The notes under the pieces: generated by a model
The model's input: the letters and a program-made list of their open reading frames with translations, nothing else
Told to the model about the DNA's origin: nothing
The model's database searches: none
Position numbers and translations under genes: made by a program
NCBI GenBank assembly: GCA_029266335.1
Contig: JAQSXC010000015.1
Location: 1-55,585 of the forward strand
DNA: 55,585 bases
Direction of reading: 5' to 3'
From: Eubacterium sp.
GTDB taxonomy: Bacteria > Bacillota > Clostridia > Acetivibrionales > DSM-1351
In this document: positions 30,003 through 45,222 of the stretch, in pieces
Layout of the letters: each line of letters opens with the position of its first letter
Numbering within the stretch: position 1 is the first letter of the stretch

Positions 30003-30100
30003 GATACACCTCCTACTAACAGTCTCGCCGACTAAATGACGTATTCATATCATGGTGATATGTTCATCACAGGCAATAACCTTATTAAAACCAATAATGG

Positions 30101-30260
30101 GATTATAACGCCTCAGTTCAGAAAAAATTTTTCTGTTGTAGGAAAATTTTCTCCCATCAGCGGCGTTTCAACGAGACGAGGGCTATCCTCATCGTCTGAA
30201 ACCCAAAGCCGACCTCACCACTTATAGAAGCGAGGCACATTTTTATTGGCTCGTTATATT
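30101..30260. repeat. Dispersed inverted-repeat element, copy A
   Basis: One of three related elements in this window. It starts GATTATAACGCC and ends GGCTCGTTATATT, an inverted pair. Inside it has TTCAGAAAAAATTTTTC, TGTAGGAAAATTTTCT and GGCGTTTCAACGAGACG in the same order as copies B and C, then a variable hairpin (GACGAGG/CCTCATCGTC). It lies between rng and rplU. Read on the minus strand, its end gives TATAAT pointing at rplU. No coding capacity. Confidence 0.75.
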
Positions 30261-30294
30261 TGAAAAGCCTTGGCCGAGCGGCTACCGATATATT

Positions 30295-31791
30295 TTAGCA
30301 CAGCAAGGAATCCTTGTCAATCTCTTTAATCCTAAGTCCTCCGGCTTTTAAATCACTAACCGGATAGACCGCTATACTTACACCTGAATTATTTTCATAT
30401 TCCTTTGCAAGCATTTCAGCATGGTTCTCTACAATTGCAGCTACAGAGGTATGTACCTCAACCTTTATTGACTTCGCAGCTGTTGTTTTAAGGTATTCCC
30501 TGATTTCCTTCAATATATTCATGGCATGAGTATCGGTTGTATACACCTTCCCAGTTCCGTCACAGCAGGGACAGTCACAGTTCATTACGGTTGAAAGCTC
30601 CTGTCTTATCTTTTTTCTTGTCATTTCAACCAATCCCAGTCCGGTCATGCCAAGAACAATAGTTTTTGTCCTGTCGCCTTTCAGGCTTATTCTTAAGGAT
30701 TCCAATACCATCTGCTGATGTTCGGCATCATTCATATCGATAAAATCTATAATTACAATTCCGCCAATATCCCGTAGTCTCAGCTGTTTAGCGATTTCCT
30801 TTGTGGCCTCAATATTGGTTTTTAACACTGTTTCCTCAAGATTGTTATCTCCCACAAATTTGCCGGTGTTAACATCTATTACTGTCAGTGCCTCGGTCTT
30901 GTCAATTATGATATAACCTCCGCATTTGAGCCATACCTTTCTAGCAAGAGCTCTTTCTATTTTTGTCTCTATCTGATAGTAATCAAATATGGCATAATCC
31001 TTCTGAAATAATTCAACCCTGTTTTTTAGAACAGGTGAAATCATTTCTACCAGCTCAAGGACTTTGAAGTATTCTTTTTCATTATTGATAATGAATTTAT
31101 CTACGTTCCAGGTAAACAAATCCCTGACCGACCTGTATATAAGGTTGATGTCTTTATGAATACACCTTGGAACAGGGCCGCTATTTTCCGATTGTTTAAT
31201 CCTGGCCCAAAGCTTTGTGAGAAAAGCAACATCCTCTACAAAATCAGACTCTTCCTTCCCCTCCGATACTGTTCTGACTATTAAACCCATATTTTCTGGT
31301 TTAAGCTTTTCAGCTATCTTTTTAAGTTTCTGTCTTTCATTGTCATTTTCAATTCTGCGAGAAATACCGACATAATCGGCATTTGGGAGCAATACCAGAT
31401 TACGTCCGGGAAGGGTTATGTGAGTGGAAACTCTCGGCCCTTTTGTCCCGATTGGTTCCTTGATAACCTGGACTGTTATCTCCTGACCGACTTTTAAAAT
31501 GTCAGCTATATTATACTCTGTATAATCTCGATAAACTTCTATTTCGTCATCGGAATACTCTTTTTGCGGTATTGCATCTCCAACATACAGGAAGGCATTC
31601 TTTTCATAGCCTATGTCTATGAAGGCCGCCTGCATTCCGGGCAGAACACTGCTGACTTTGCCTCTGTATATATTCCCTACAAGGCCCTGGTGATTTGTTC
31701 TCTCAATATGAATTTCAGCAAGTTCTTTATCTTCAAGAATACCAACTCTGATTTCTCCGGGGTTGACGTCCACAATTATTTCGTTAACCAT
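30295..31791 (-). CDS. rng: Ribonuclease G/E family endoribonuclease
   Basis: A 498-residue Rne/Rng-family ribonuclease. An S1-type RNA-binding domain lies at about 35-125 (NIYRGKVSSVLPGMQAAFIDIG), then the RNase H-like and DNase I-like catalytic region with DIGGIVIIDFIDM near 345, and the zinc-link CDCPCCDGTG near 405. Length matches RNase G rather than RNase E, as there is no scaffold tail. GGAGAT precedes the ATG. It follows the DUF2344 gene and repeat copy C and precedes rplU, the usual clostridial order. Likely role: rRNA and mRNA processing. Confidence 0.93.
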   Translation of the reverse strand: MVNEIIVDVNPGEIRVGILEDKELAEIHIERTNHQGLVGNIYRGKVSSVLPGMQAAFIDIGYEKNAFLYVGDAIPQKEYSDDEIEVYRDYTEYNIADILKVGQEITVQVIKEPIGTKGPRVSTHITLPGRNLVLLPNADYVGISRRIENDNERQKLKKIAEKLKPENMGLIVRTVSEGKEESDFVEDVAFLTKLWARIKQSENSGPVPRCIHKDINLIYRSVRDLFTWNVDKFIINNEKEYFKVLELVEMISPVLKNRVELFQKDYAIFDYYQIETKIERALARKVWLKCGGYIIIDKTEALTVIDVNTGKFVGDNNLEETVLKTNIEATKEIAKQLRLRDIGGIVIIDFIDMNDAEHQQMVLESLRISLKGDRTKTIVLGMTGLGLVEMTRKKIRQELSTVMNCDCPCCDGTGKVYTTDTHAMNILKEIREYLKTTAAKSIKVEVHTSVAAIVENHAEMLAKEYENNSGVSIAVYPVSDLKAGGLRIKEIDKDSLLC

Positions 31792-31863
31792 TTAAATCTC
31801 CATTTCCGACGTGGAATCAGTATTATCACACGTTTTCGATTTCGTTAAGCGCTTGGTAAACAC

Positions 31864-31985
31864 ATTATAACGAGGCGGAGAGCATATCCATGGTGACCCT
31901 AAGCACATTTGCCTCGCTGAAACGCATTTAAGGTAATAAAATTTTTCTACAACCTAAAAGTTTTCTATTTAACCTATGCGTTATA
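31864..31985. repeat. Dispersed inverted-repeat element, copy C (reverse orientation)
   Basis: Read on the minus strand it begins TTATAACGCATAGG, then TGTAGAAAAATTTTATTACC, TGCGTTTCAGCGAGGCAAA, and ends CCTCGTTATAATG. These blocks match copies A and B in order and spacing, with a shorter variable part. It starts inside the stop codon of the DUF2344 gene (31981-31983), and its far end gives TATAAT pointing at rng. Confidence 0.75.
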
Positions 31986-32691
31986 AAACCTGAGTATCCA
32001 TGGGCTCCAATAATTCATCCTGAGTCTTGACATAAAGTTTTGACCTGTGAATTCTGTCAATATCAAAGTCAGAAGCTAACATGGCAAACAGGGCTTCCAA
32101 AAGAAGCTCAGGCTTCAAATTGGCCTTACTGCCCGCACTAACCAGCATTGTAAACTTTATTATATTAAGAGCTCCGAAGGGTTGTAACTCGAAAGTCAGG
32201 TCATAAATCATATCCTTGATATTTGTGTCTTTTATACCGCTTTTGGTTTTCTTTTTTACCATGATATCTGCCTGCGAAAGGAATTTAGCGATACCGGACC
32301 TGAGACTTTTATCAGAACATTCCAGCTGCGTGCCTGCAACAACTATATATTCCGAAGCGGCAATTGTAGCCATGATATTCTGCTTTGATTTTCTCGGCTT
32401 TGCTGCTAAAATTTCAAGACCTTGAGGCAGCTGGGCATTAAGCCTTTGGGAAAATTCATCCATTGAGAGACTATCATCTGTAATTTCAAAATCGCCATAT
32501 TCAGCCTCACTGGTAACCCCTACACTGAGCGGCAGTCCGAAAACCATGCCAGGATGCGGATTAAACCCCTGAGAGTAAGCAATAGGCAGCCTGGCTCTTC
32601 TGATGGCACGTTCAAATACCTTCATAAGATCCAGATGCGAAATAAATTTAACTTCTTCACCACGCCTGAATTTAACACGAATATTAACCAA
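31981..32691 (-). CDS. TIGR03936-type (DUF2344) radical-SAM partner protein
   Basis: A 236-residue protein of the DUF2344 family, which accompanies and sometimes fuses to the TIGR03960 radical SAM protein: N-terminal RVKFRRGEEVKFISHLDL and GFNPHPGMVFGLPL are diagnostic. The start is probably TTG at 32691, with GGAGG supplied by the end of the upstream gene; the two genes are joined by a stop/start junction, so translation is coupled. Function unknown, but the constant association with rng, rplU and obg suggests an RNA or ribosome modification. The stop codon overlaps repeat copy C. Confidence 0.88.
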   Translation of the reverse strand: MVNIRVKFRRGEEVKFISHLDLMKVFERAIRRARLPIAYSQGFNPHPGMVFGLPLSVGVTSEAEYGDFEITDDSLSMDEFSQRLNAQLPQGLEILAAKPRKSKQNIMATIAASEYIVVAGTQLECSDKSLRSGIAKFLSQADIMVKKKTKSGIKDTNIKDMIYDLTFELQPFGALNIIKFTMLVSAGSKANLKPELLLEALFAMLASDFDIDRIHRSKLYVKTQDELLEPMDTQVL

Positions 32692-32692
32692 T

Positions 32693-34537
32693 TTAATTAC
32701 CTCCACAAATACCGCTTTTAAAGCCTGCTGCCCCACAGCCTCCGCAGTCTACCCGGCAGTTTGGCGTCACTTTTTCTTCCAGTGCTTTTTTATGTTCAGC
32801 TATCAGATATTTCTTTGACACACCAATATCAACATGATCCCAGGGTAAAACCTCATTATATTCTCTTTTTCTTGTGGCATAGAAATACGGATCAACTCCG
32901 CATTCTTCAAAGGCTTTCATCCAAACATCATATTTGAAATGTTCACCCCATCCATCAAATTTACAACCAGCCGCCCACGCCTTGATCAGAACCTTACAGG
33001 TCCTTCTGTCCCCGCGGGCAAATACTGCTTCCATAAAACTCAGCTTATTCTCGTGATAGTTATATGTTATCTGCCTGGAACGTATTTTGTCCTTCAGACG
33101 CATTTGTTTCTGATTTACATTATCAATGCTGTCCTGAGCTTCCCATTGAAATGGTGTAAAGGCTTTGGGCACAAAAGTTGCAGTGCTCACAGTGACATTC
33201 AGATTCTTTCCCCTCTTTTCCTTAGGAACATTTCTGTATACGTCAGTCACCTTGTAAGCCAGATCAGCGATACCTTCCACATCTTCAATTGTTTCTGTCG
33301 GAAGACCCAGCATAAAGTATAGTTTTACTCCGCTCCAACCCCCATTAAAAGCAAGTGTAACTGCATTCAGAAGGTCATATTCCGTTACACCCTTGTTTAT
33401 AACATCCCTCAGTCTCTGGGTACCTGCTTCAGGAGCAAAGGTAAGTCCGCTTTTACGAACTTTTTGTGCCTTTTCCATCAAATCCAGTGAAAAGGAGTCT
33501 ATTCTCAAGGAAGGAAGCGACAGATTTACCTTTCTCTCTTCCATATCGTCCAACAAACCTGTTGTCAACGGCTCCAGCCCTGTATAATCACTTGTACTTA
33601 ATGAAGTAAGAGAAATCTCTTCATAACCGGTACTTTCCTCAAGCTTTCCGGCCAATTCCAGAAGCCTTTCATGGCTTTTTTCGCGGACAGGTCTGTATAT
33701 AAAGCCTGCCTGGCAGAAACGGCAGCCTCTTGTACATCCCCTGAAAATTTCAAGCATAATTCTGTCGTGAACTATATCGGTATAAGGGACAATTATCTTT
33801 TCAGGGAAATAAACCATATCCATATCTTTTATAATACGCTTCTTTATCTTTGTAGGATAGTGAGGTTTTAAAGGTTGAAAGTTTTTTATGGTACCGTCTT
33901 CATTATAGGTAAATTCATAAAAGGAAGGAACATAAATACCCTCTATTTTCATAATCTCTTCAAGGAAAGCCTGTCTGGGTTTCCCGGTACCCTTCCACTG
34001 TCCGTATACATCCATTACTTCATTTATTATTTCTTCACCCTCACCCATCATGAAGAAATCGACTATATCGGCCAATGGCTCAGGATTGTATGCACATGGA
34101 CCTCCGGCACAGACAAAGGGAGCCTCCCCCTCTCTCTCTTCAGATAAGATTGGAATTCCGGCAAGGTCGAGCATGTTTACTATATTTGAAAAGCTCATTT
34201 CATATTGAAGTGTAAAACCAACAAAATCAAAAGTCTTTATAGGATCTTTTGTCTCAAGAGAATAAAGCGGAATATTATTCTCTCTCATTTTGCTCTCCAT
34301 GTCTGTCCAGGGTGCAAAAACTCTTTCGCAATAGCAATCCTGTCTTTCATTGAGGAGATGATACAATATTTTCATTCCCAGATGGGACATTCCGATTTCA
34401 TAAGTATCGGGGAAGCAAAAAGCAAATCTTATATTAACGCTTTTAGGGTCCTTTATTATACTGTTCCATTCATTACCTGTATATCTTGATGGTTTTTCAA
34501 CACTTTTCAATAATGCATCCGAAAGTTTTATCCCCAT
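32693..34537 (-). CDS. TIGR03960-type radical SAM protein
   Basis: A 614-residue radical SAM enzyme. The N-terminal part (about 20-200) has the B12-binding-like Rossmann region, with GMSHLGMKILYHLLN near 50. The [4Fe-4S] motif CTRGCRFC lies near 270, followed by the SAM-binding barrel (LTSLSTSDY, TFAPEAGTQRLRD). The C-terminus has a cysteine-rich end (CRVDCGGCG...CGG), probably another metal site. Reaction unknown. It is first in the unit with the DUF2344 gene, rng and rplU; a promoter candidate lies at 34796-34824. GGAGAT precedes the ATG. Confidence 0.9.
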   Translation of the reverse strand: MGIKLSDALLKSVEKPSRYTGNEWNSIIKDPKSVNIRFAFCFPDTYEIGMSHLGMKILYHLLNERQDCYCERVFAPWTDMESKMRENNIPLYSLETKDPIKTFDFVGFTLQYEMSFSNIVNMLDLAGIPILSEEREGEAPFVCAGGPCAYNPEPLADIVDFFMMGEGEEIINEVMDVYGQWKGTGKPRQAFLEEIMKIEGIYVPSFYEFTYNEDGTIKNFQPLKPHYPTKIKKRIIKDMDMVYFPEKIIVPYTDIVHDRIMLEIFRGCTRGCRFCQAGFIYRPVREKSHERLLELAGKLEESTGYEEISLTSLSTSDYTGLEPLTTGLLDDMEERKVNLSLPSLRIDSFSLDLMEKAQKVRKSGLTFAPEAGTQRLRDVINKGVTEYDLLNAVTLAFNGGWSGVKLYFMLGLPTETIEDVEGIADLAYKVTDVYRNVPKEKRGKNLNVTVSTATFVPKAFTPFQWEAQDSIDNVNQKQMRLKDKIRSRQITYNYHENKLSFMEAVFARGDRRTCKVLIKAWAAGCKFDGWGEHFKYDVWMKAFEECGVDPYFYATRKREYNEVLPWDHVDIGVSKKYLIAEHKKALEEKVTPNCRVDCGGCGAAGFKSGICGGN

Positions 34538-34795
34538 TTTATCTCCAATTCCGCAACGGAATAAATGAATTACCCCTTTTCAGAATTGGGATAAAATCGA
34601 TTTATTACCCGTACCACAAATAAGTTTATATATCTAATTTTTTTAAATTCAATTAATCAAAAAGCCAAAAAAAAAGAACAACATACAGGCATTTTGTCCT
34701 TGACGAAAATCATCTCGCCAAATACGGTGTTTATTGTTTAATCATGCCTAATTCCTTTTAAGTACAAAAATGTATTCTAACTATTGCCAGAATTT

Positions 34796-34824
34796 ATTAT
34801 AGCAGAACAAACCTAATATGATAA
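34796..34824 (-). promoter_or_regulatory. Candidate promoter of the radical-SAM/rng/rplU block
   Basis: Minus-sense TTATCA (34824-34819), 17-bp spacer, perfect TATAAT (34801-34796), leaving a leader of about 250 nt to the ATG at 34537. The rest of this 339-bp gap (34538-34876) shows no gene or clear terminator, only AT-rich sequence with an A-run at 34668-34676. Confidence 0.55.
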
Positions 34825-34876
34825 TACAATTTTTTCAAACAGACTAAATATTACAATATATAATATACCCTATATT

Positions 34877-35159
34877 TTGTTTTTAAAATCAAATACGGTT
34901 GAAATCAAGTCTGACATTACTGTCTGGCACGCATACGTATGTATTATCAGCTTATTTTATCCGTATGTCAAGCGTTTACAAACAGTTGCAAGCATAAATA
35001 GAAAGGGGCATCAATATGCTAACGCCTTAATGGAGTCATATTTTCCGACAATTAAAAGAGAGCTTATTCAGGATACTAATTTGAAACACCCGAACAAGCT
35101 CAGAAGGAAATCTTTAAATATATTAAAATTACTTTACAACTATTTTGGAGCTTTCCGGC
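34877..35159 (+). pseudogene. Remnant of an IS3-family transposase (OrfB C-terminus)
   Basis: The plus-strand frame encodes, at about 34997-35146, a segment like the end of IS3-family OrfB: RKGHQYANALMESYFPTIKREL, corresponding to the usual 'RKGNCYDNA-MESFF-LK-E' block with the last Glu of the DDE triad, then YNYF. A few residues before it (SDIT) may match the DDE-domain start, but the rest is missing. No OrfA, terminal repeats or ribosome binding site are seen. It abuts the RpiR gene's 3' end. Confidence 0.65.
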
Positions 35160-36005
35160 TTAAAGCTTATATTCGGAAAGAATCTTCTCAGGCTTATCTG
35201 CACTATTTGCAATTATTTTTTCTTCATTTGTGACAAAGTGTAGCAAAGCATCTATCACAACTGTTTCGTTCAACCGGGAATAGCCCTTGTAATAATCAAA
35301 TGCCTGTCCCGAAACATTTGATAATAAAACACAATCTGACAATTTTGAGACCGGTGAATATTCTGCCCCAGTAATGGCAATAACCTTAAGTCCCTTTTCC
35401 TTTGCAAGCTCCAAGGCTTGCACTACCTGTTTGGATTCACCCGACCTGGAAATTGCTACGACAATGTCATCAGAATCGGCAAGATTTACATAGTTCATCC
35501 AATATTCAGGAATCATACTGGATGTGCACTTAACGCCAAGGCGTCCCAGCCTGAAATCCATATACATTGCAAGTGGGCTTGTATTACCGACTGCAACAAT
35601 ATGAACCTGTCTGCTGGTTTTTATCAGGTTCGCACATTCCAATAATTTGTCTTGCTCCAAATTTTTGCCTATTGCCAGTATACGGGAAGAAAAAGACTGG
35701 AATAAACCGCTGACAGTATCCATCTTAATATTCTCCATATCAACATCCCATACCTGTTTACGCCCTAAATCTCTTGATAAATCAATCCTCAACTGGTAGT
35801 AACCCTGATAACCTATGTGTTTGCACATTCTTATGACAGTGGCGTCACTTACACCGCTGTAGTTTGCCAACTCTGACACGTTAGCATTTACTGCTTTTTC
35901 AGGATTTTCAAGAATGAAATCCGCCACTTTCTTTTCTGCATGAAATATATTATTATAATTTTCTTTAATGGTTTCTATTACTGTCATTCCTTGATTAGTC
36001 TCCAT
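35160..36005 (-). CDS. RpiR-family transcription regulator (HTH + SIS)
   Basis: A 281-residue sugar-phosphate-responsive regulator. The N-terminal HTH_6 domain (about 1-75) has VSELANYSGVSDATVIRMCKHIGYQGY, and the SIS domain (about 105-250) has IVAVGNTSPLAMYMDFRL and DIVVAISRSGESKQVV, where the phosphosugar binds. GGGGGG precedes the ATG. It is downstream of the sugar operon on the same strand, separated by a terminator and 320 bp, so it is probably transcribed on its own and regulates that operon (inference). Confidence 0.9.
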   Translation of the reverse strand: METNQGMTVIETIKENYNNIFHAEKKVADFILENPEKAVNANVSELANYSGVSDATVIRMCKHIGYQGYYQLRIDLSRDLGRKQVWDVDMENIKMDTVSGLFQSFSSRILAIGKNLEQDKLLECANLIKTSRQVHIVAVGNTSPLAMYMDFRLGRLGVKCTSSMIPEYWMNYVNLADSDDIVVAISRSGESKQVVQALELAKEKGLKVIAITGAEYSPVSKLSDCVLLSNVSGQAFDYYKGYSRLNETVVIDALLHFVTNEEKIIANSADKPEKILSEYKL

Positions 36006-36271
36006 ATTTTTTCTCGTCCCCCCTAACTTAATTTCAAATAATTTAAAATTAATGTCTTCTGGTAATTGAAGATATTATATAGTAATTTTACTGATTTGGT
36101 ACTTTATTTAATTTCAGCTATAAAATAATATATCATATAAACCAGAAATAAAAGTACCCTTAATTTTGAGAAATTTTAATAAATTGGTAAATGCCATTTT
36201 CTCCGATAATTAATATTTGTATGTTAAAACCTCTAATACCAGTAATAAGGAGTCCAAGTAAACCTAAATGT

Positions 36272-36317
36272 AAAAGCAGAAGGATTTCGAATGTACATCC
36301 GAATACCTTCTGTTTTT
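36272..36317 (-). terminator. Terminator of the sugar operon
   Basis: AAAAGCAGAAGG (36272-36283) pairs with CCTTCTGTTTTT (36306-36317), with further partial pairing inside (TTTCG/CGAA). Minus-sense Ts follow. It lies just after the kinase stop at 36328. The rest of 36006-36271 is AT-rich, with no further feature seen. Confidence 0.8.
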
Positions 36318-36327
36318 ACTCATCATA

Positions 36328-37512
36328 TTATGAAGGAAGTGCCGGTAAAAAACCTCCGACAAATGCATCCCCAAGACCTATTGTTGTTACTTTTTTCTCT
36401 TCAACCCGCACAGATGGGATACAGCAAACTTTATCACCCAGAAGTATTTTTAATTCATTGGCAAAAACTGAGCCTTCTTCTTCCTGGCTAAGTCCATCCG
36501 TCTCCATGTAATTTTCTTCAGTAAAATCATCTCCAAATCGGAAACGTGTTGTCGCCATATTAACGCCGCCTTTAAGTGCTTTTGCTACACTCGTGGCATT
36601 TTCACCATAAGCAAGTGCCCAATATTTTGAATGAACAACTATTAAAGGTACATGTATTAATCCTCCTATATCCGCCAGTGCCTCCACCATATCCCGTGGA
36701 TTTAACAGATTCAGCTTTCTTCCCAGATAATGCTGCAGCTCATCTTCATTTAAACTATAAATATTGATCCGTCCTGCCAAAGCCACTTGAACCATTTTAC
36801 TAAAGCTGGAATCATAAAAGCAGGCATCCTCATAATAAACTAATGCATCCTGCGGAAGATTATTCATGATTTTCAGTAGAGCTTTCAGTCTTTGAGCAAG
36901 TAGGTCTTTGTTTTGCATTGCATTGAACCCGGAAATAAGAAACACCTTTGCGTGAGCTACAAGATCAGATAATTCCTCATTAAGTTTCATTAACATATTA
37001 TCATAATCGTTATTATATATTATACGATTTGCCCGGTTGGTGCAAATATCAATATCCCCGGCCCGGACTCTGGTATCCTTACTGAATTGTACAATTAAAT
37101 GAGGATATGAGCTATCTTTTATATTGCTGCACACATAGGGGCTGTCCTTTGGAAGCAGTCTGCGTACGTCATCATTTATAGTAACAAGATGAAGAGCAGA
37201 GGTATAACCCATTTTTTGCATTGCTATGGCAGCCCTTACAGCTGTTCCACCAAGCGTAACTTTATTCTCGAAATTTTGAGTAAAGCACTCAATAATTTCC
37301 GGTGAGGAGACAAAGCGCTCTCCGCCACTCTCAGACTTTAGAAATCCGAGGATCGAAATCACTAAATCACGCTCACTGGCTATCTCTATATTGGTGGATA
37401 ATTCAAAATCCCGGATGTGGTACCTGAGTATCATACCCTCGATAACGTCAGAATCCCACACTATTTCATAATCGATATTATCCCCAAGACCCAAAACAAT
37501 CTTTTCCTTCAT
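36328..37512 (-). CDS. ADP-dependent phosphofructokinase/glucokinase-like kinase
   Basis: A 394-residue ribokinase-fold sugar kinase resembling the ADP-specific PFK/glucokinase family rather than classical PfkB: the GGTAVRAAIAMQKMG block near 88, a long middle region with FLISGFNAMQ near 195, and the catalytic TIGLGDAFVGGF near 377, where Asp is the base. This family is best known in archaea and rarer in bacteria. It lies 42 bp after a class II aldolase in a sugar ABC operon, so it may phosphorylate a sugar phosphate before aldol cleavage. Nucleotide donor and substrate are inferred, not shown. Confidence 0.75.
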   Translation of the reverse strand: MKEKIVLGLGDNIDYEIVWDSDVIEGMILRYHIRDFELSTNIEIASERDLVISILGFLKSESGGERFVSSPEIIECFTQNFENKVTLGGTAVRAAIAMQKMGYTSALHLVTINDDVRRLLPKDSPYVCSNIKDSSYPHLIVQFSKDTRVRAGDIDICTNRANRIIYNNDYDNMLMKLNEELSDLVAHAKVFLISGFNAMQNKDLLAQRLKALLKIMNNLPQDALVYYEDACFYDSSFSKMVQVALAGRINIYSLNEDELQHYLGRKLNLLNPRDMVEALADIGGLIHVPLIVVHSKYWALAYGENATSVAKALKGGVNMATTRFRFGDDFTEENYMETDGLSQEEEGSVFANELKILLGDKVCCIPSVRVEEKKVTTIGLGDAFVGGFLPALPS

Positions 37513-37554
37513 TATTTAGCCTCCCCTATGTAATTATGCACCCTGGATAAATTA

Positions 37555-38415
37555 CTAATAGAGCTTTGCTTTATCTTCTGCATTGAAGAGTGCTATCTTC
37601 TGATAGGCAACCTCTTTCATAGCAGCGATACAAGGAGGATAAATTGAATTTGGTTCTCTGAGCACAGGATTAGCAAGAACTTCACGGCATTTCTTATAAA
37701 ATGCATCTTTGATATCACTTGAAATATTGATCTTATTTATTCCCAATTTAACCGATTGCGCAATTTCACTGTCTTTATTGGCAGAACCCCCATGGAGTAC
37801 CAATGGGATATTTACTTTTGACTTTATTACTTTAAGTAACTCCAGCTCCAACTCAGGCTTCATATCTTTTGGATAAATTCCATGAGAAGTACCAATCGCA
37901 ATTGCTAAAGCATCAACACTTGTAGCTTGAACAAAAGCTACTGCATCTGTAGGATTTGTATAGATAATCTTTTCTGCACCTGCTTCAGCTTCCGGGCCTG
38001 TAGTACCAATGGTTCCCAATTCGCCCTCTACAGAAACATTCACAGCATGAGCGAGTTCTGCTACTTTTCTGCAAATTACTATATTATCTTCAAGAGAATG
38101 AGTAGAAGCATCTATCATAACAGATGTAAAACCACTCTGTATAGCCTCCATAACCTGATCAATTGTTGATCCGTGATCCAGATGGATACATACAGGAACT
38201 GTTGCCTTATGAGCCTCCTCAATAACTGCCTTTACAAAGGAATCCCGTACAAAGCTCAGTTCATCAGGATGGATTGCGATAATAACCGGAGACTGTTTTT
38301 CTTCACAAGCCTCCATAATACCTCTCAGAATCATATTACTGCTTGTGTTGAATGCCGGAACAGCAAAATAATTAGTATTTGCAACGGCAAGTAAATCTTT
38401 CATATTCATTAACAT
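37555..38415 (-). CDS. Class II fructose-bisphosphate-type aldolase
   Basis: A 286-residue zinc aldolase of the FbaA/GatY/KbaY family that splits a ketose bisphosphate to dihydroxyacetone phosphate and an aldehyde phosphate. Zinc and active-site motifs: HLDHGS near 81, GELGTIGTTGPE near 132, IGTSHG near 176 and VLHGGSAN near 205. The ATG at 38415 follows GGAGG. Whether it acts on fructose, tagatose or another sugar cannot be told. It lies between the MalG-type permease and the ADP-dependent kinase-like gene, suggesting that the two enzymes act in sequence. Confidence 0.88.
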   Translation of the reverse strand: MLMNMKDLLAVANTNYFAVPAFNTSSNMILRGIMEACEEKQSPVIIAIHPDELSFVRDSFVKAVIEEAHKATVPVCIHLDHGSTIDQVMEAIQSGFTSVMIDASTHSLEDNIVICRKVAELAHAVNVSVEGELGTIGTTGPEAEAGAEKIIYTNPTDAVAFVQATSVDALAIAIGTSHGIYPKDMKPELELELLKVIKSKVNIPLVLHGGSANKDSEIAQSVKLGINKINISSDIKDAFYKKCREVLANPVLREPNSIYPPCIAAMKEVAYQKIALFNAEDKAKLY

Positions 38416-38472
38416 ATAAACTACCTCCATAAATATATTTTTATTGTAAATAAAACAACAATAGACAAGTTT

Positions 38473-39315
38473 TTAACTTTTAACAGCACCAGCGGTCATA
38501 CCTGCAATAAAATAACGTTGCAGGAACAGGAAAAGAATAAGAACCGGCAGACAACCAAGTATACTCATAGCCATCATTTCATTCCATTCATAGGAATGCT
38601 GACCCATTAGCAACTGTATGCCTATCGGGACAGTTCTCATCTCATTTGTTTTTGTCAGCGTAAGTGCAAACAGATACTCATTCCATGCCTGCATAAATGT
38701 GTAAATTCCAGTAGAAACTATACCTGGCAAGGAAATTGGTACAAGTACCTTCCACAATGAGATAAAAGAGTTGCCTCCATTCACAAGTACAGACTCATCC
38801 AATTCTTTAGGCAAAGTATTAAAATACCCTGTCATCATAATAATTGCGTAAGGAAGAGTAAAAACCATATATGTAAATACTAATGCAAAATAAGTATTAT
38901 ACATCTTTAGTGTAACAATAAGGCCAAAGTAAGGAATTAACAGTGTAATTGGCGGAACAGCCTGTACATTGATAATAATCATATTCAGTGGTTTTTTAAA
39001 TTTGAAATCGTACCTGCTGATACCATATGCCGCCAGAATTCCGACAATCAGTGTAAGAATAGTGACCAGAGTAGAAACCAGATAACTGTTTATAAAAAAC
39101 CGCACCTTTGCCGAGTCGGTAATAATCGACTTATATGCTTCAAAAGAAAAGGATTTGGAGATAAAACTCGGTGGATACGCAAAAATTTCAGGGTTGGGCT
39201 TAAATGAACACACTGCCATCCAAACAACAGGAAATCCGGCATAAACAGCACCAATCAAAAGAGCAATTATAATCAATACTTTGGTAATCTTTTCTTTGAA
39301 AGGTTTTGAAAACAT
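38473..39315 (-). CDS. Carbohydrate ABC permease, MalG type
   Basis: A 280-residue inner-membrane permease with six predicted helices and the EAA-type loop ESVLVNGGNSFISLWKVL near 185 that contacts the ATPase. It is of the MalG/SugB type. The start at 39315 follows GGGGGATTA. It overlaps the end of the MalF-type gene by a few bases, so the two are translationally coupled. No ATPase gene is in the operon; a shared MsmX-type ATPase elsewhere is likely. Confidence 0.9.
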   Translation of the reverse strand: MFSKPFKEKITKVLIIIALLIGAVYAGFPVVWMAVCSFKPNPEIFAYPPSFISKSFSFEAYKSIITDSAKVRFFINSYLVSTLVTILTLIVGILAAYGISRYDFKFKKPLNMIIINVQAVPPITLLIPYFGLIVTLKMYNTYFALVFTYMVFTLPYAIIMMTGYFNTLPKELDESVLVNGGNSFISLWKVLVPISLPGIVSTGIYTFMQAWNEYLFALTLTKTNEMRTVPIGIQLLMGQHSYEWNEMMAMSILGCLPVLILFLFLQRYFIAGMTAGAVKS

Positions 39316-39316
39316 T

Positions 39317-40240
39317 CTAATCCCCCGCTTTCTGATACTTGACATAGAACAACGCCATACACATTGATATAATCAAAACTATGACTGCACTAGCTGATGC
39401 TTTGGAAAACTCATAGGAACTAAATGCCAGCTTGTATGTGAAAGTACTCAGCATTTCAGTAGAATGAATCGGCCCACCACCAGTAGTCATCCATACCAAC
39501 GGAAATTGTTGTATTGTCCATATAAAATCCAACATGGCCATACTGACGATAATTGGCTTAAGTTTCGGGATTGTAACATATCTGAAGCTTTGAACATTAT
39601 TTGCACCATCAATAGTTGCCGCCTCATAAAGTTCATTAGGAATACCCTGAAGACCGGCAAGAAGACTTATCATGAAGAAAGGATAGCCCGACCAGATATT
39701 TATATATGTAAGAGCATGTAGTGCAAATTGACTTGAGCTAAGCCATTCTATTTTACTGCTCACAATGTCAGCTGAAGTGATTATGTAGTTAACAATACCA
39801 TTGGGATTTAACATTAATCTCCACAATATTGCAATGATAGTTGCTGTAAATACCCACGGCAGCACGTAAATAACCCTGAAAATCGACTTGGTAACGGGTT
39901 GAAGCACCCTTGTATTTAAAAGCATTGCAAATGAGAGTCCAAGTATAAAGTGGAAAATAACACTCATCACTGTAAAATAAAGTGTATTAAAAATTGCCTG
40001 ATGAAAAGTACTGTCTGAAAGAATATCTGTATAATGCGAAATTCCTGTAAAAACCGGGTTTTTACTCATTATTACATTGTCTTTAAATGAATATAGAATT
40101 ACCATTATTATAGGAATAAGCATCAATACTGTCATTAAAATAATTGTTGGTGACAAATAGGCGTACGGAGAAAGTTTTTTTATTACTGCCTGCAGCGTAC
40201 TTTTCTTTGATTTTTTAGCAATACTGCTATCTATTATCAT
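39317..40240 (-). CDS. Carbohydrate ABC permease, MalF type
   Basis: A 307-residue permease with a basic cytoplasmic N-terminus, about six membrane helices, and the EAA loop EAATIDGANNVQSFRYV near 205. It pairs with the MalG-type gene that follows. The ATG at 40240 follows AAGGAGAAGG; the frame runs 26 codons further up without a good site. It comes 87 bp after the binding-protein gene. Substrate not predictable from sequence alone. Confidence 0.9.
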   Translation of the reverse strand: MIIDSSIAKKSKKSTLQAVIKKLSPYAYLSPTIILMTVLMLIPIIMVILYSFKDNVIMSKNPVFTGISHYTDILSDSTFHQAIFNTLYFTVMSVIFHFILGLSFAMLLNTRVLQPVTKSIFRVIYVLPWVFTATIIAILWRLMLNPNGIVNYIITSADIVSSKIEWLSSSQFALHALTYINIWSGYPFFMISLLAGLQGIPNELYEAATIDGANNVQSFRYVTIPKLKPIIVSMAMLDFIWTIQQFPLVWMTTGGGPIHSTEMLSTFTYKLAFSSYEFSKASASAVIVLIISMCMALFYVKYQKAGD

Positions 40241-40327
40241 AGGAAGCCTTCTCCTTTTCAGTAGTCTTGGGATTGGAAATTGCACGGCTGTTACCGCCGT
40301 GCAACTCCGGTCAAACAACGAATATTA

Positions 40328-41659
40328 CTAGAAGTTCTTTTCCCAGTCAGTTTGTGCTTTCTTAAGAGTATCTTCGATCGACTGCCTGCCGTCCAGCAGC
40401 AGTTGTAACTGCTCGTCAAAGGATCTCATTAGCTGTTCAGCAACAGGCAGACCTACAAACTCATTTGCAGGATATCCTGCCTTATAGGTAGCAAATGCAT
40501 TTGCGAATAATTCATCTGTTCCTGTGAAATCAGGACTTGAATTAACATTTCCAGGAAATGCATTTGCTATTGTTGAGAGCTTTGAGTTTACACTTTCACT
40601 CATAAGGAATGAAACGAGTTTCCAGGCTTCATCCTTGTGCTTGCTGTTTTCAGCAACACCAATACCCCATGATGCATATGGCATACCTCTTTTTCCTGTA
40701 TAATCATCCTTAGCAGGAAGAGCAGTAACTACGAAGTTCAGATTAGGATTGCTCTTACGGATAGTCTTAATGTGAGCCAGAGAGTCAACCATCATACCAA
40801 CACGTCCGTTCGTAAACTCTTCAACCTTGTCCTGTTCGGCCATCGTGAATGAACCGGGAGCAATTGAACCATCATCATACAAGGCCTTAACAAACTCAAT
40901 GGCACTTTTAACATCTGCATTGGTCAAATCAGGCTTTCCGTCTTTCAGCATACTTGCCCCTGAGGCCCATGCCCATGACATAACATCATTCTGAATACCG
41001 TTAGGAGCTTCTAATGAAAGTGGAAGAATCCAACCATAAACATTGTTTTTAGCATTTGTGAGTTTCTTGGCAGCTTCACGGAATTCAGTTCTGGTAGTCG
41101 GCATCTTTGTGATTCCTGCTTTGTTCATAAGGTCCTTATTGATGAAAACAGGGTAAACATAGTTTACTACCGGAATCATATATGTAGCATTGTTTAATTT
41201 GACTTGTGATGCAAGCTGACTATCATCATAATTATTCTTCTTCATCAAATCTGTGAGGTTGGCGATAGCTCCCTGCTTAACAAAGTCACTAACCCAAGCT
41301 CCATCCAAACCAACAACATCAGACATCGTTCCTGCAGCAGCTCCGGCAACAACCTGCTGCTTTGTAGAAGCATACGGTCCACTGATAAGTTTAACTTTGA
41401 TGCCTGCATTTTCTCCTTCAAATTCGTCCATAAGTCCTCTTAATGCATTCTCAGCAAGTTCTGGTTCCCACCATTGAGCAAACTCAAGGGTAACCGCGTC
41501 TCCCGAACTAGCTACTGTCGAGGCTGCTGCCGTTTCTGTAGAGGATGGGGTACTAGTTGAAGAATCTGTTCCTGCTGAACTGCTACTGCTGCCACAACCA
41601 GCTGCCAGAGCAGCAACCATAGCCGCAGATAATAAAAGTCCTAAAATTTTTCTTTTCAT
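40328..41659 (-). CDS. Sugar-binding lipoprotein of an ABC importer
   Basis: A 443-residue family-1 extracellular solute-binding protein: signal segment with lipobox (LAAGC, Cys near 22), a Ser/Thr/Ala-rich tether to about residue 55, then the two-lobed binding domain (LEFAQWWEPELAEN near 55; WGIGVAENSKHKDEAW near 333). It captures a sugar or oligosaccharide outside and hands it to the MalF/MalG pair. It heads the operon behind a strong sigma-A promoter. In the full operon it is followed by two permeases, an aldolase and a kinase. Confidence 0.93.
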   Translation of the reverse strand: MKRKILGLLLSAAMVAALAAGCGSSSSSAGTDSSTSTPSSTETAAASTVASSGDAVTLEFAQWWEPELAENALRGLMDEFEGENAGIKVKLISGPYASTKQQVVAGAAAGTMSDVVGLDGAWVSDFVKQGAIANLTDLMKKNNYDDSQLASQVKLNNATYMIPVVNYVYPVFINKDLMNKAGITKMPTTRTEFREAAKKLTNAKNNVYGWILPLSLEAPNGIQNDVMSWAWASGASMLKDGKPDLTNADVKSAIEFVKALYDDGSIAPGSFTMAEQDKVEEFTNGRVGMMVDSLAHIKTIRKSNPNLNFVVTALPAKDDYTGKRGMPYASWGIGVAENSKHKDEAWKLVSFLMSESVNSKLSTIANAFPGNVNSSPDFTGTDELFANAFATYKAGYPANEFVGLPVAEQLMRSFDEQLQLLLDGRQSIEDTLKKAQTDWEKNF

Positions 41660-41707
41660 TACTTCATTCCCTCCTTAAATTAAGTATGTTTACTAGGTTC
41701 TAAAATC

Positions 41708-41736
41708 ATAATAGTCCTTCCAAATTGATTTGTCAA
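41708..41736 (-). promoter_or_regulatory. Sigma-A promoter of the sugar operon
   Basis: Minus-sense TTGACA (41736-41731), exactly 17 bp, then TATTAT (41713-41708). The leader is about 45 nt to the ATG at 41659. No CRE-type palindrome was recognised. The rest of the 41660-42021 gap is AT-rich and ends in the terminator at 41931-41969. Confidence 0.85.
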
Positions 41737-41930
41737 GAAATAAAATTTTATTTTGCAATATAAATTGTTAATTTTACCATTAAATATTATATATATTGAT
41801 ATATATTTGTGCTATTTTGCTAAATACCATTGTGTTTTGCTCTATTTTTAAATCATTTATGTAAAATTTTATTTCTTCATGAAATTTTATGTTTTGTATT
41901 GAGGTAGTATTAGAAGAAAAAAGAGTATAA

Positions 41931-41969
41931 AAAAAACACACTGCATCATATAAAATGGTGTGTTTTTTT
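41931..41969. terminator. Terminator after the pyrimidine-degradation genes
   Basis: AAAAAACACAC (41931-41941) pairs with GTGTGTTTTTTT (41958-41969) across a 16-nt loop. It is read in minus sense after the gene ending at 42022, and also has a T-run in plus sense. Confidence 0.85.
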
Positions 41970-42021
41970 CTATACAGAATATTTTTATTTAAGTATTAAG
42001 GGACAGCTAAATAATAACCCA

Positions 42022-42438
42022 CTAAATCTCTGTGGGATGATAACAGTTTCTTAATAAATTCCAGACATCTTCGACTGAGACTATGAATTGTCTTTCCATG
42101 GTTTTACTGCCGTTTTCAAATACTACCAGGAATTTATCCTTCCAATCGTATAAGGAAATATGCCTCTTTTCATACTCCTCAGCCATGGAGCCTGAAAATA
42201 TATCCTTCAGCTTTTCATTATCATGTACATACCCGTAAATATACATCATCCCATTATAAAATGCCGGTAAAACTGTTTTAAAAAAAGTAGATTCTTTAGA
42301 AAATTCAATTACCACACTTATTTCAGGTCTTCCATGTGGTACAGCACGCAATTCTGGTACTATGGTACGGAAATGATTTGAAGGTATATAATCATTCAGA
42401 GCTATGTGCGGTATATCACTATGATCTTGTTTGACCAT
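42022..42438 (-). CDS. Uncharacterised protein (138 aa) at the end of the pyd-type cluster
   Basis: A 138-residue soluble protein with mixed alpha/beta character and one Cys near the C-terminus. I do not recognise a family and see no catalytic motif. A GGGGGGAG box precedes the ATG, and it lies 58 bp after the iron alcohol dehydrogenase and just before a terminator, so it is probably the last gene of that unit. It is not an amidohydrolase, so it does not fill the missing ureidopropionase step. Confidence 0.6.
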   Translation of the reverse strand: MVKQDHSDIPHIALNDYIPSNHFRTIVPELRAVPHGRPEISVVIEFSKESTFFKTVLPAFYNGMMYIYGYVHDNEKLKDIFSGSMAEEYEKRHISLYDWKDKFLVVFENGSKTMERQFIVSVEDVWNLLRNCYHPTEI

Positions 42439-42496
42439 GAACTCCCCCCTCTCCTGCCGGGTGCAAAAACATAATTACCTTTATTAATATCCGGTT

Positions 42497-43501
42497 TTAT
42501 TTTATTTTCTCATCCATAGAAATGCTTTCCTTTTCTCCAAGCAAATCCTCCAGTACTGAGGAGAATTCTTTTACCGCGGACAGCTTCATACCCGAAAGAA
42601 TAGTTCTTACCCTGTCCGGAAGGCTTTTTTCAACAAAACCCAGAAAGGCTGCCAGTAAAAGGCCATTTGCCCTTCCATGATCTATATCCTTATAATAAGT
42701 GAGGGAATAACCCATTGCATGTACTGCAGTTGTTCCGGTATTTGCAATAACCATACCGGCCAGAGTTGAAGCATACAGCAGGCTTTCACGCTGTTCCCGT
42801 GTCAGTGACCTGTTCTTCAATGACTCAAAGCAGGAAGCAATCAATCTTATGCTTTCCATGGCAAGGCTGTCAGAGATTGTGGATGCCCTGTTGGACAGCA
42901 TCCCCTCCACTGAATGGGAAAGGGCATCAATTGCGGTATTTATTGTGGTTGTATATGACAGTCCTTCCATATACCTTGCATCAAGGAAAGCCAGCTTTGG
43001 AAAAATGACCGGGGATGCTATGCTTGTTTTTGTTTCAGCCTTGTGGTTTGTGAGTATGGAATACTGGGTAACCTCCGAGCCTGTACCTGCAGTTGTCGGT
43101 ACAAAGGCCATGGGAAGAACATCTCCGGAATAAACACCGGAAAACAGGTCCTCTTCCCTTATGTCCTGCCTGGCCAGCAGTGCCATGGCCTTTGCTGCAT
43201 CCATTGGTGAGCCGCCGCCAATGGCTATAACAAAGTCGGCCGAGTTTTCTCTGGCAAAGGCTGCACCGGCATATGCACATTCTATGGTGGGATTTGCCAT
43301 TACACTGTCGAAAATGACATATTCCTGTTTATTGGCATTCAATACAGCTATGACATCTACAAGAGAACCGTTAGCCTTTGCAGAATGCCTGCCTGTGACT
43401 ATGAGAGCTTTTTTTCCCATATCGGCCAGCAGCCCGCTGTTGGCGGCGATGCAGCCGTTCCCCATAATTACCTTTGTCGGCATATAGTACAATTTACTCA
43501 T
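42497..43501 (-). CDS. Iron-dependent alcohol dehydrogenase, C-terminally short
   Basis: A 334-residue group III alcohol dehydrogenase. The NAD(P) site (IAIGGGSPMDAAKAMA near 85) and all metal ligands are visible: AIDALSHS near 182-186, VHAMGYS near 250 and DIDHGRANG near 264. The protein ends about 45 residues earlier than the usual 380, with no matching tail in other frames. Beside a beta-alanine-type aminotransferase, the likely substrate is malonic semialdehyde, giving 3-hydroxypropionate, as described for clostridial and bacillar reductive pyrimidine pathways (PydE role). The ATG at 43501 follows GGGGAT. Confidence 0.8.
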   Translation of the reverse strand: MSKLYYMPTKVIMGNGCIAANSGLLADMGKKALIVTGRHSAKANGSLVDVIAVLNANKQEYVIFDSVMANPTIECAYAGAAFARENSADFVIAIGGGSPMDAAKAMALLARQDIREEDLFSGVYSGDVLPMAFVPTTAGTGSEVTQYSILTNHKAETKTSIASPVIFPKLAFLDARYMEGLSYTTTINTAIDALSHSVEGMLSNRASTISDSLAMESIRLIASCFESLKNRSLTREQRESLLYASTLAGMVIANTGTTAVHAMGYSLTYYKDIDHGRANGLLLAAFLGFVEKSLPDRVRTILSGMKLSAVKEFSSVLEDLLGEKESISMDEKIK

Positions 43502-43702
43502 AAATATCCCCATGCCCAGCATTTTGCTCAAAACGCAATGATAGAAATGGCATGGGCACGGTACCTCCTTTATTTATTATTAAAATTTCTTTCAACCTTG
43601 ACCTCCTCAATAAGTGAATAGCTATGGCAGGTTTTCTTTTGCAAGCCTACATTAAATAATCCATAACTAATATTATATTTATTATATGATAAGCTGATAA
43701 TA

Positions 43703-45028
43703 TCAAAGTAATTCATTATCAACAACTGTCAAAACTCTATCCACTTTTGCCATTTCTTCACGAATTTGTTCAGGAGTGATAATAAGAGGAGGTGCTACAA
43801 GAATCATGTTTTCATGAGAATATGTCATAAAGCCCTCTTTACCCAGCTTTCCTATAATTGACTTCATAACAGCTTTTGGATCACTGCCGTAAGGAACCAA
43901 TGGTTCACGGGTTTTCTTGTCCTTTACCAGTTCTATTGCTGAAAACAAACCGATATATCTGACATCACCGACGCTTGGATGTTTTTCCTTCAGGGCTTCA
44001 AGTTCTTCACCCAGAACCTTTCCGCTTACATTAACATTTTCTAGTACATTGTTTTCCTGATAGAATTCCAGACAGGCTATTCCTGCTGCACAGGCCAATG
44101 GATGACCGCTGTAGGTCAGGCCGCATTTCAGCACATTTTCATCAAAGAATCCGGCTATCGGCTTGCTTACGGCTACACCACCCAGTTGAACATATCCGCA
44201 GGTGACGCCTTTTGCAAAAGTAACAAGATCAGGCTTGACATCCCAGTTTTCAAAGCCGAACATCTTGCCTGTTCTGCCAAAGCCAGCCATAACTTCGTCA
44301 CAAATGAGCAGTATTCCATAGTCATCACATATTCTGCGTAAACCCTTCAAATATCCGACCGGTGGAATAATTACTCCATTTGAACCTGTAATTGTTTCAA
44401 GCACAATGGCTGCAACATTATCCGCCCCCTCATATACCACCTGCTCACGAAGCTTTGCCACATAGTAATCCGAAGCTTCCTTCTCAGATGCAAAAGCAAT
44501 TTGTTCACGGTATATATATGGATCGAAGAATTTTACAAAGCCGGGAATACCGGGTTCTAAAGGATATCTTCTGGGCTCGCCCGTAAGATTTCCTGCACCG
44601 TATGTAGAACCGTGATAGCTGCGGTAGCGCGAAAATATTTTGTTACGTCCTGTAAACATGCGGGCCATTTTTACAGCATTTTCATTGGCATCTGCCCCAC
44701 CGTTGGTAAAAAACACTTTTCCCATATTGTCGGGCATAAGATCAATTATCATTTTAGCCAGCTTTGCCCGAGGCTCGCTTGCATAGCTTGGAGATATATA
44801 ACAATATTTTTCTGCCTGTTCCTTAATTGCATCAATAATTTTACGGTTTCCATGTCCTACATTTAAATTTACCAGCTGTGATGACATATCAGAATACCTG
44901 TTGCCGTCCAAATCCCAGAAGTATATACCCTCTCCCTTCTCGACAGGAATTGGATTCAAGCCTTTCTGTTTTGACCAGGACTGAAGGTTGTAATTTATTG
45001 ATAAGCTTTTGATTTCTTCCTTATTCAT
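43703..45028 (-). CDS. Class III aminotransferase, probably beta-alanine-type
   Basis: A 441-residue PLP enzyme of the omega-aminotransferase group: FFTNGGADANENAVKMAR near 105 (PLP phosphate site), YRSYHGSTYGAGNLTG near 138, LICDEVMAGFGRTG near 243, and the Schiff-base Lys in TFAKGVTCGY near 272. Full length. Position between iron ADH and PucR/PreA/dihydropyrimidinase genes suggests that it converts beta-alanine to malonic semialdehyde (PydD role). Acceptor (pyruvate or 2-oxoglutarate) unknown. The upstream gap carries repeat copy B, whose end offers a TATAAT towards this gene. Confidence 0.85.
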   Translation of the reverse strand: MNKEEIKSLSINYNLQSWSKQKGLNPIPVEKGEGIYFWDLDGNRYSDMSSQLVNLNVGHGNRKIIDAIKEQAEKYCYISPSYASEPRAKLAKMIIDLMPDNMGKVFFTNGGADANENAVKMARMFTGRNKIFSRYRSYHGSTYGAGNLTGEPRRYPLEPGIPGFVKFFDPYIYREQIAFASEKEASDYYVAKLREQVVYEGADNVAAIVLETITGSNGVIIPPVGYLKGLRRICDDYGILLICDEVMAGFGRTGKMFGFENWDVKPDLVTFAKGVTCGYVQLGGVAVSKPIAGFFDENVLKCGLTYSGHPLACAAGIACLEFYQENNVLENVNVSGKVLGEELEALKEKHPSVGDVRYIGLFSAIELVKDKKTREPLVPYGSDPKAVMKSIIGKLGKEGFMTYSHENMILVAPPLIITPEQIREEMAKVDRVLTVVDNELL

Positions 45029-45062
45029 AGTATGAGACCTCTTTTCTTTATAATTTTAGGTT

Positions 45063-45222
45063 GATTATAACGCATTTGTTCAGCGGAAAATTTTTCGACT
45101 GTAGAAAAATTTTCTTACCTTAGTCGCGTTTCAATGAGGCAAAGGTGCCCAAGTTTTCCACAAGGTGACCCCAAGGACACCTTGTGGACAGCAGCATGGA
45201 ATATTTATTGCCTTATTATATC
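45063..45222. repeat. Dispersed inverted-repeat element, copy B
   Basis: It begins GATTATAACGCATTTG and ends TGCCTTATTATATC, an imperfect inverted pair. Inside are TTCAGCGGAAAATTTTTC, CTGTAGAAAAATTTTCTTAC and GCGTTTCAATGAGGCAAA, matching copies A and C in order, then a variable hairpin with 10-bp arms CCACAAGGTG/CACCTTGTGG. It occupies the gap between the aminotransferase and PucR genes (45029-45346). On the minus strand its end forms TATAAT about 40 bp before the aminotransferase start. Confidence 0.75.

Follow-up and report, generated by a model that had tools for sequence, protein, structure and literature searches.

Among the short repeats of bacterial genomes, the closest described systems are REPINs and bacterial interspersed mosaic elements (BIMEs), in which repetitive extragenic palindromic (REP) sequences tagged with GTAG occur together with a REP-associated tyrosine transposase, or RAYT (PMC3116915 and PMC3733652, in the sections drawn on here). 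According to the same sections, REP dimers and REPINs are built as a pair of hairpins placed head to head with a tetranucleotide on the outside (PMC3733652, PMC3116915). REPs are described as species-specific in the excerpt of PMC6006769 used here, which also documents single-strand transposition on the lagging-strand template for IS608 and ISDra2. We have analyzed three repeats, hereafter copies A, B and C, in a stretch of 55,585 nucleotides from Eubacterium sp. (assembly GCA_029266335.1, contig JAQSXC010000015.1, positions 1 to 55,585), hereafter the window, in which a previous sequence-only reading had recognized inverted-repeat elements of one kind. The three copies are members of one large, dispersed and gene-free family that is present in many Clostridia and is nearly certainly mobile.

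A covariance model (R1) built from 23 copies retrieves at least 107 matches with E <= 0.01 in the genome of origin (G000; 5.52 Mb in 356 contigs), with 150 of 2232 candidates scored; all counts from genome searches are lower bounds, since 150, 75, 40 or 10 candidates were scored per genome. The expectation of many genomic copies, and the broad description of the repeats as a miniature inverted-repeat transposable element (MITE) or other folded dispersed repeat, are thereby confirmed, with over 100 further matches in the genome and a fold that covaries (see below); the profile search that had been proposed for this genome and its relatives finds the family in both. A blastn search with copy B gives 40 scored places of 104 candidates, with E-values of 9e-79 for itself and from 3e-21 to 2e-7 at worst for the others, copy A not being among the 40. 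These values, together with the strong covariation of the fold, lie beyond the chance resemblance of shared blocks, even if the 9-mer TTATAACGC alone is not above chance in the window (15 seen vs 12.5 expected with one mismatch allowed).

The highest pairwise identity among 54 copies of the own genome is 0.87, and these copies are therefore old. The closed genome G007, of the same genus, has at least 114 matches, and within one genus the copies range from none (G003 and G010) to over 100 (G000 and G007). In G118, which belongs to another family, the 40 scored copies of 128 candidates are all 88-100% identical to the query; because at least 40 copies are so similar, they represent a recent burst of a recently active family. 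R1 matches are present in 21 of the 40 genomes searched as relatives (own included) and, under strict filters with 10 candidates scored per genome, in 24 of 291 genomes and 16 of 180 genera across the class. The exact core occurs in 30 stretches of a collection of 84,980 species, the hosts being Ruminiclostridium cellobioparum (two subspecies), Acetivibrio mesophilus, Sinanaerobacter chloroacetimidivorans and metagenome-assembled genomes (MAGs) of Clostridia or Bacillota. Plasmids and phages give no blastn match and the exact 28-base core is absent from IMG/VR, where 55 stretches with the 15-mer GCGTTTCAACGAGGC include none with an R1 match (0/55) and were thus taken as chance.

The copies of the window are all present where they had been reported, with ends 1-2 bases off the earlier ones, and can be aligned from end to end:

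30103..30259, + strand: copy A, whole element, 157 nt (R1 match 132.3 bits; element-free site in relatives)
30107..30167, + strand: copy A, hairpin H1, AACGCC..GGCGTT (from sequence and alignment A2)
30170..30255, + strand: copy A, hairpin H2, AACGAGAC..GGCTCGTT (from sequence and alignment; the minimum-energy DNA fold of this copy favours another pairing)
45065..45221, + strand: copy B, whole element, 157 nt (R1 match 108 bits; fold z -5.3)
45069..45130, + strand: copy B, hairpin H1, AACGC..GCGTT (from sequence and fold)
45133..45217, + strand: copy B, hairpin H2, AATGAGGC..GCCTTATT (from sequence and fold)
31865..31986, - strand: copy C, whole element, 122 nt, of opposite polarity to A and B (R1 match 91.7 bits)
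31921..31982, - strand: copy C, hairpin H1, AACGC..GCGTT (from sequence and fold)
31869..31918, - strand: copy C, hairpin H2, AGCGAGGC..GCCTCGTT (from sequence and fold)

Their alignment bears out the series of shared blocks, namely TTATAACGC, the GAAAA/TTTTC palindromes, TGTAG-AAAATTTT, the GCGTTTCA..GAGGC-like blocks and the closing TTATA. Read with H1 first, the plan of the element is TTAT - H1 - TC - H2 - ATAA, so that each hairpin has TTAT at its outer foot, on one strand for H1 and on the other for H2. H1 is conserved and pairs AACGC..GCGTT around GAAAATTTTTC-GRYTGTA-GAAAAATTTTC, while H2, bounded by AACGAGGC..GCCTCGTT, has a variable interior that corresponds to the variable central hairpin of the sequence-only reading. 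The total length varies from about 65 to 230 nt; the full form of about 155 nt contains extra small hairpins inside H2, as many copies do, and other copies have almost nothing there. Among 20 short forms read from matches of the H1 model, eight end in GTTATA after 62-71 nt, as if H1 and the right end were enough for a short form, the others being longer, truncated at the edge of a contig or without the GTTATA end. No autonomous long copy carrying a gene is seen among the H1-model matches listed. As to individual variants, five H1 matches of Acetivibrio mesophilus (L304-L308 in G033) all stop at model position 58, just past the inner hairpin, the right end being absent in four of them, and in two genomes some copies carry a small palindrome of about 18 nt within one of the H1 arms (L015 1463-1572, L054 6360-6470, L030 and L053), hairpins seeming to be gained and lost as units.

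The two hairpins are maintained through compensatory changes. In 54 copies of the own genome, 92.5% of the paired cells are complementary (vs 46-56% when the pairing is slid), and in 54 matches of G007 the value is 84.8% (vs 36-49%). Double changes affect 19 of 24 pairs in the own copies (62 cells, where shuffling gives 18 on average) and 18 of 24 pairs in G007 (86 cells, where shuffling gives 36); alignments A3, A6 and A8 were fitted to the model, and pair counts consequently lean towards it. The cells with G.U and A.C are 45 : 39 and 67 : 46, a near balance that points to pairing of DNA rather than RNA. When copies are folded individually, B forms the two expected hairpins (z -5.3) and a copy of Acetivibrio mesophilus reaches -55.4 kcal/mol (z -6.7), while C has a z of -2.4 and A, with a z of -2.9, has a different best fold.

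The copies occupy a TTATA-like site of five bases. The 33 copies read in G118 have sharp ends and unrelated flanks, N/TTATAACAAG..GCCTCGTTATA/N, with TTATA on the left in 32 of them and on the right in all 33. Empty sites, which had been suggested as a check, are readable for copy A: five of nine relatives have GAA-TTATA-TTT without the element, where the own genome reads GGGA-TTATAACGCC..GGCTCG-TTATA-TTTGA. At the same place G003 is element-free but different in sequence, and G001, G009 and G004 retain decayed pieces. For copy C none is readable in the 9 aligned relatives. A second site is filled in G001 and empty in G009, where exactly 5 nt lie between the flanks; when the joined flanks of eight G001/G009 copies are compared, a clean empty site is seen for one, another is present in both genomes, a third is matched on one side only and the other five have no counterpart. 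Copies also form head-to-tail arrays that share one TTATAA: the 21 neighbour pairs of G007 lying within 400 bp are all in the same orientation (21/21) and 16 of them overlap by exactly 6 nt; of the 15 junctions read, nine are TTATAA and six are one base off. From these shared junctions, new copies seem to enter at the TTATA of old copies.

The orientation of the copies was then compared with the direction of replication, using for draft genomes the local GC skew as a proxy for fork direction (about 3 kb per locus in G118 and up to 16 kb in the own genome) and taking gene contexts from a simple script for open reading frames (ORFs). G007 is a single contig with dnaA at base 1 and GC skew of opposite sign in its two halves; with respect to the midpoint, 96 of its 114 matches are oriented against the leading strand, as are 74 of 92 after collapsing to clusters (p 3e-9) and 56 of 59 at 60 bits or more. 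By GC skew the same holds for 44 of 54 copies in the own genome and 28 of 33 in G118, and, pooling the three genomes, 118 of 136 copies run against leading-strand synthesis. Since the genes of G007 follow the fork, transcription could mimic this polarity; in divergent or convergent gaps, however, the copies lie against the fork in 14/14 (G007), 12/14 (own) and 11/13 (G118) cases, 37 of 41 in total (p 1e-7), which argues that the polarity tracks replication rather than transcription. Transcription was set aside as its cause on these mixed gene contexts, and the link with replication is well supported. The strand on the lagging-strand template reads TTATAACGAGGC-H2'..H1'-GCGTTATAA.

Taken together, these elements are probably non-autonomous, mobile two-hairpin DNAs that move as a single strand on the lagging-strand template with an enzyme supplied in trans. 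Single-strand movement is likely, and is proposed because its marks are DNA-level hairpins, a single AT-rich target of few bases and a constant orientation relative to the fork. The element would fold when single-stranded on the lagging-strand template, in the form target-ATAA/CGAGGC-H2'-GTTGAAACGC-H1'-GCGTTATAA; an enzyme acting in trans would cut at both TTAT/ATAA feet, and the excised element would be joined to another TTATA exposed on a lagging-strand template. A nuclease of the Y1/HUH type is the textbook candidate for such an enzyme, and no gene of this type linked to the element was found. That the family might represent a class of TTAT-tagged single-strand hairpins, spread through several families of Clostridia and served by an enzyme outside both the RAYTs and the IS200/IS605 transposases, is a tentative and still doubtful extension of this proposal.

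Several observations weigh against single-strand movement as set out here. The best RNA fold of the G118 element pairs the outer ends together instead of forming two separate hairpins, so that a two-hairpin and a closed form may compete in the predicted structures, and the best DNA fold of copy A departs from the consensus, other pairing being favoured outside the inner hairpin of H1. Copy C is itself of minority polarity, and G012 shows 13 of 18 matches in the expected sense about the midpoint, the position of its origin not having been located. If gene co-orientation in G007 is assumed to be 0.85, the polarity of all 114 matches is not above that level (p 0.79), the value for matches at 60 bits or more being p 0.03; it is therefore the mixed gene contexts that speak against transcription. 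The context counts omit five of the 54 G007 matches, each with the opposite polarity: three are weaker matches on the other strand of a counted copy and two lie below 33 bits, and adding these two weak ones changes the pooled figures to 118/138 and 37/42. Readable empty sites are found at 2 of 10 filled sites examined, each with a single 5-base target, and at the second of them the empty pentamer is CTGTT vs TTATT on the right of the filled site (with TTATA at the other end). The right end is TTATT in 10 of 54 own copies and the left in none, a pattern that A3 and A8 do not show. Moreover, target duplication and an element-borne TTATA predict an identical empty site, and hence the sites do not distinguish the chemistry of joining. 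As to the enzyme, Y1 transposase matches in the own genome are only partial, G007 has one Y1 gene of IS200 size, and among the stretches around long and short Y1 genes, which include two overlapping pairs, 1 of 30 in one set and 0 of 35 in the other hold a copy. IS200 ends, as seen in one aligned pair and seven further loci of the order, are unlike the element.

Different ends led us to discard the IS200 transposases of the order as mobilisers, and RAYT was discarded as partner since its genes are not linked to copies. Several IS200 copies of the order directly follow a stem-loop, often with a T-run (L198-L202, L218 and L219). RAYT genes are described as single copy in the part of PMC3116915 drawn on, and in comparison G212 is odd in having five long Y1 genes of equal score (contig C1 at 585538, 598380, 1646042, 4801926 and 4811394); the six G212 stretches around Y1 genes, two of them overlapping, contain no element. 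We also clustered 614 ORFs around 146 loci: nine members of the larger clusters and three of the largest G118 cluster, checked against Pfam, include no transposase travelling with the elements and are transporters, regulators, sensors and housekeeping genes. A function as RNA was rejected on the lack of an Rfam family at threshold and of a strong G.U excess. At gathering scores Rfam finds only one tRNA in the window, and nothing at threshold in L051, L384 and the copy A region, the best match of L384 (E 0.035) lying outside the element; four relatives give no match at E <= 1. No such element is named in the literature searched, in which subscription journals are sparsely covered; the portion of PMC2267715 drawn on includes a table naming C. 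perfringens and C. tetani.

Other explanations account for parts of these data. The family could consist of classical MITEs that a DDE transposase acting in trans moves as double-stranded DNA, duplicating a 5-bp TTATA target; TTATA on both sides in 32 of 33 G118 copies, empty sites with exactly one 5-mer and a few copies with the same altered base at both ends (one MAG copy with CTATAA on both sides) would fit. We consider this unlikely, because almost no inverted repeat lies inside TTATA (ACG../..CG), the altered bases at the two ends mostly differ, no transposase with such ends was found and polarity requires the extra assumption of selection or of replication-directed target choice, as in Tn7 with TnsE. 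The empty sites do not separate the models. Hence the term MITE, apt in the broad sense, is doubtful in the strict sense of transposon inverted ends inside a target duplication: beyond the hairpin feet the ends share little except TTATA, and this pentamer is at the same time the target; single-strand movement also accords better with the replication polarity. Less probable again is a true REPIN, mobilised strictly by an IS200/IS605 or RAYT enzyme whose Y1 gene is lost from, or lies elsewhere in, copy-rich genomes. Architecture and polarity agree with it, in G014 a copy lies 121 bp past the stop of one RAYT-size gene, and outside the own genus long Y1 genes occur in 18 of 26 genomes with the element vs 7 of 21 without (Fisher p 0.02, from counts made by eye and ignoring relatedness). 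Yet a search of 11 genomes of the own genus gives no long Y1 (RAYT-size) gene, the 35 further stretches around Y1 genes hold no copies, and the tag is TTAT.

Conservation of a polar sequence useful to the host, in replication, chromosome organisation, control of transcription or as RNA, with orientation kept by selection, would explain polarity, covariation and the position of copy A in a gene leader (upstream of the L21 gene). It is very improbable considering that one genus includes genomes with 0 copies and others with more than 100, that filled and empty sites coexist with decayed remnants, and that the Rfam and G.U results are negative. The least probable alternative is a folded site of the integron attC kind, moved by a tyrosine recombinase. 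Vibrio attC repeats do resemble the TTATAAC/GTTATAA ends and the box-sharing arrays, and they fold; against this stand the dispersed single insertions at TTATA and the absence of cassette genes between copies, integrase genes not having been searched for.

With regard to their surroundings, copies A and B are wholly intergenic, as the sequence-only reading had stated for all three, whereas copy C reaches with its TTATAA into the final six bases of the ORF at 31981-32736. This ORF is a DUF2344 gene, the stop codon of which falls within that TTATAA (31981-31986). Copy A lies in the gap 30003-30294, upstream of the gene for ribosomal protein L21 (29691-30002, minus strand) and downstream of an RNase E/G gene; the gap also holds blocks conserved in nine relatives, and Rfam recognises no leader RNA in the copy A region or the relatives. 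Copies in gene leaders, such as copy A, may change expression.

With its near-identical copies, the G118 lineage lends itself to direct tests of strand, intermediate and enzyme. A RAYT partner and a GT[AG]G tag are part of the description of REP-like hairpin elements; the present family is their abundant counterpart in Clostridia, in which the tag is different, no transposase is linked and the polarity relative to replication is clear. Integron attC sites are folded single strands with TTATAAC..GTTATAA ends and arrays that share a box, features that recur in our element, which differs in having no cassette genes and in its dispersal at TTATA. BOX, RUP, ERIC and similar bacterial MITEs (see PMC3049150) are likewise modular intergenic repeats of 100-200 bp; they belong to other hosts, and the likeness is one of size, modular build and position between genes. 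IS200/IS605 elements and their non-autonomous derivatives (IS608 and ISDra2, in the excerpt of PMC6006769) resemble the element in their terminal hairpins, their short AT-rich target and the way in which orientation depends on the lagging-strand template. Unlike theirs, its hairpins begin at TTAT itself, a separate guide tetranucleotide not being seen, its two ends are complementary to each other, and no partner transposase with the same ends was found. In contrast to REPs, as characterized in the same excerpt, it forms one family across several families of a class; it also departs from REPINs and BIMEs in its TTAT tag in place of GT[AG]G, in the larger size and mutual dissimilarity of H1 and H2, and in having no linked RAYT. 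For its tag and want of a linked RAYT we do not file the element as a REPIN, but it works like one: to the extent that REPINs and BIMEs are portrayed in the sections cited above, it shares with them the short, gene-free and mostly intergenic form, the variable middle, the tandem clusters and single-hairpin forms, and two inverted hairpins set head to head with a tetranucleotide at their outer feet (TTAT-H1..H2-ATAA, as the covariation indicates).

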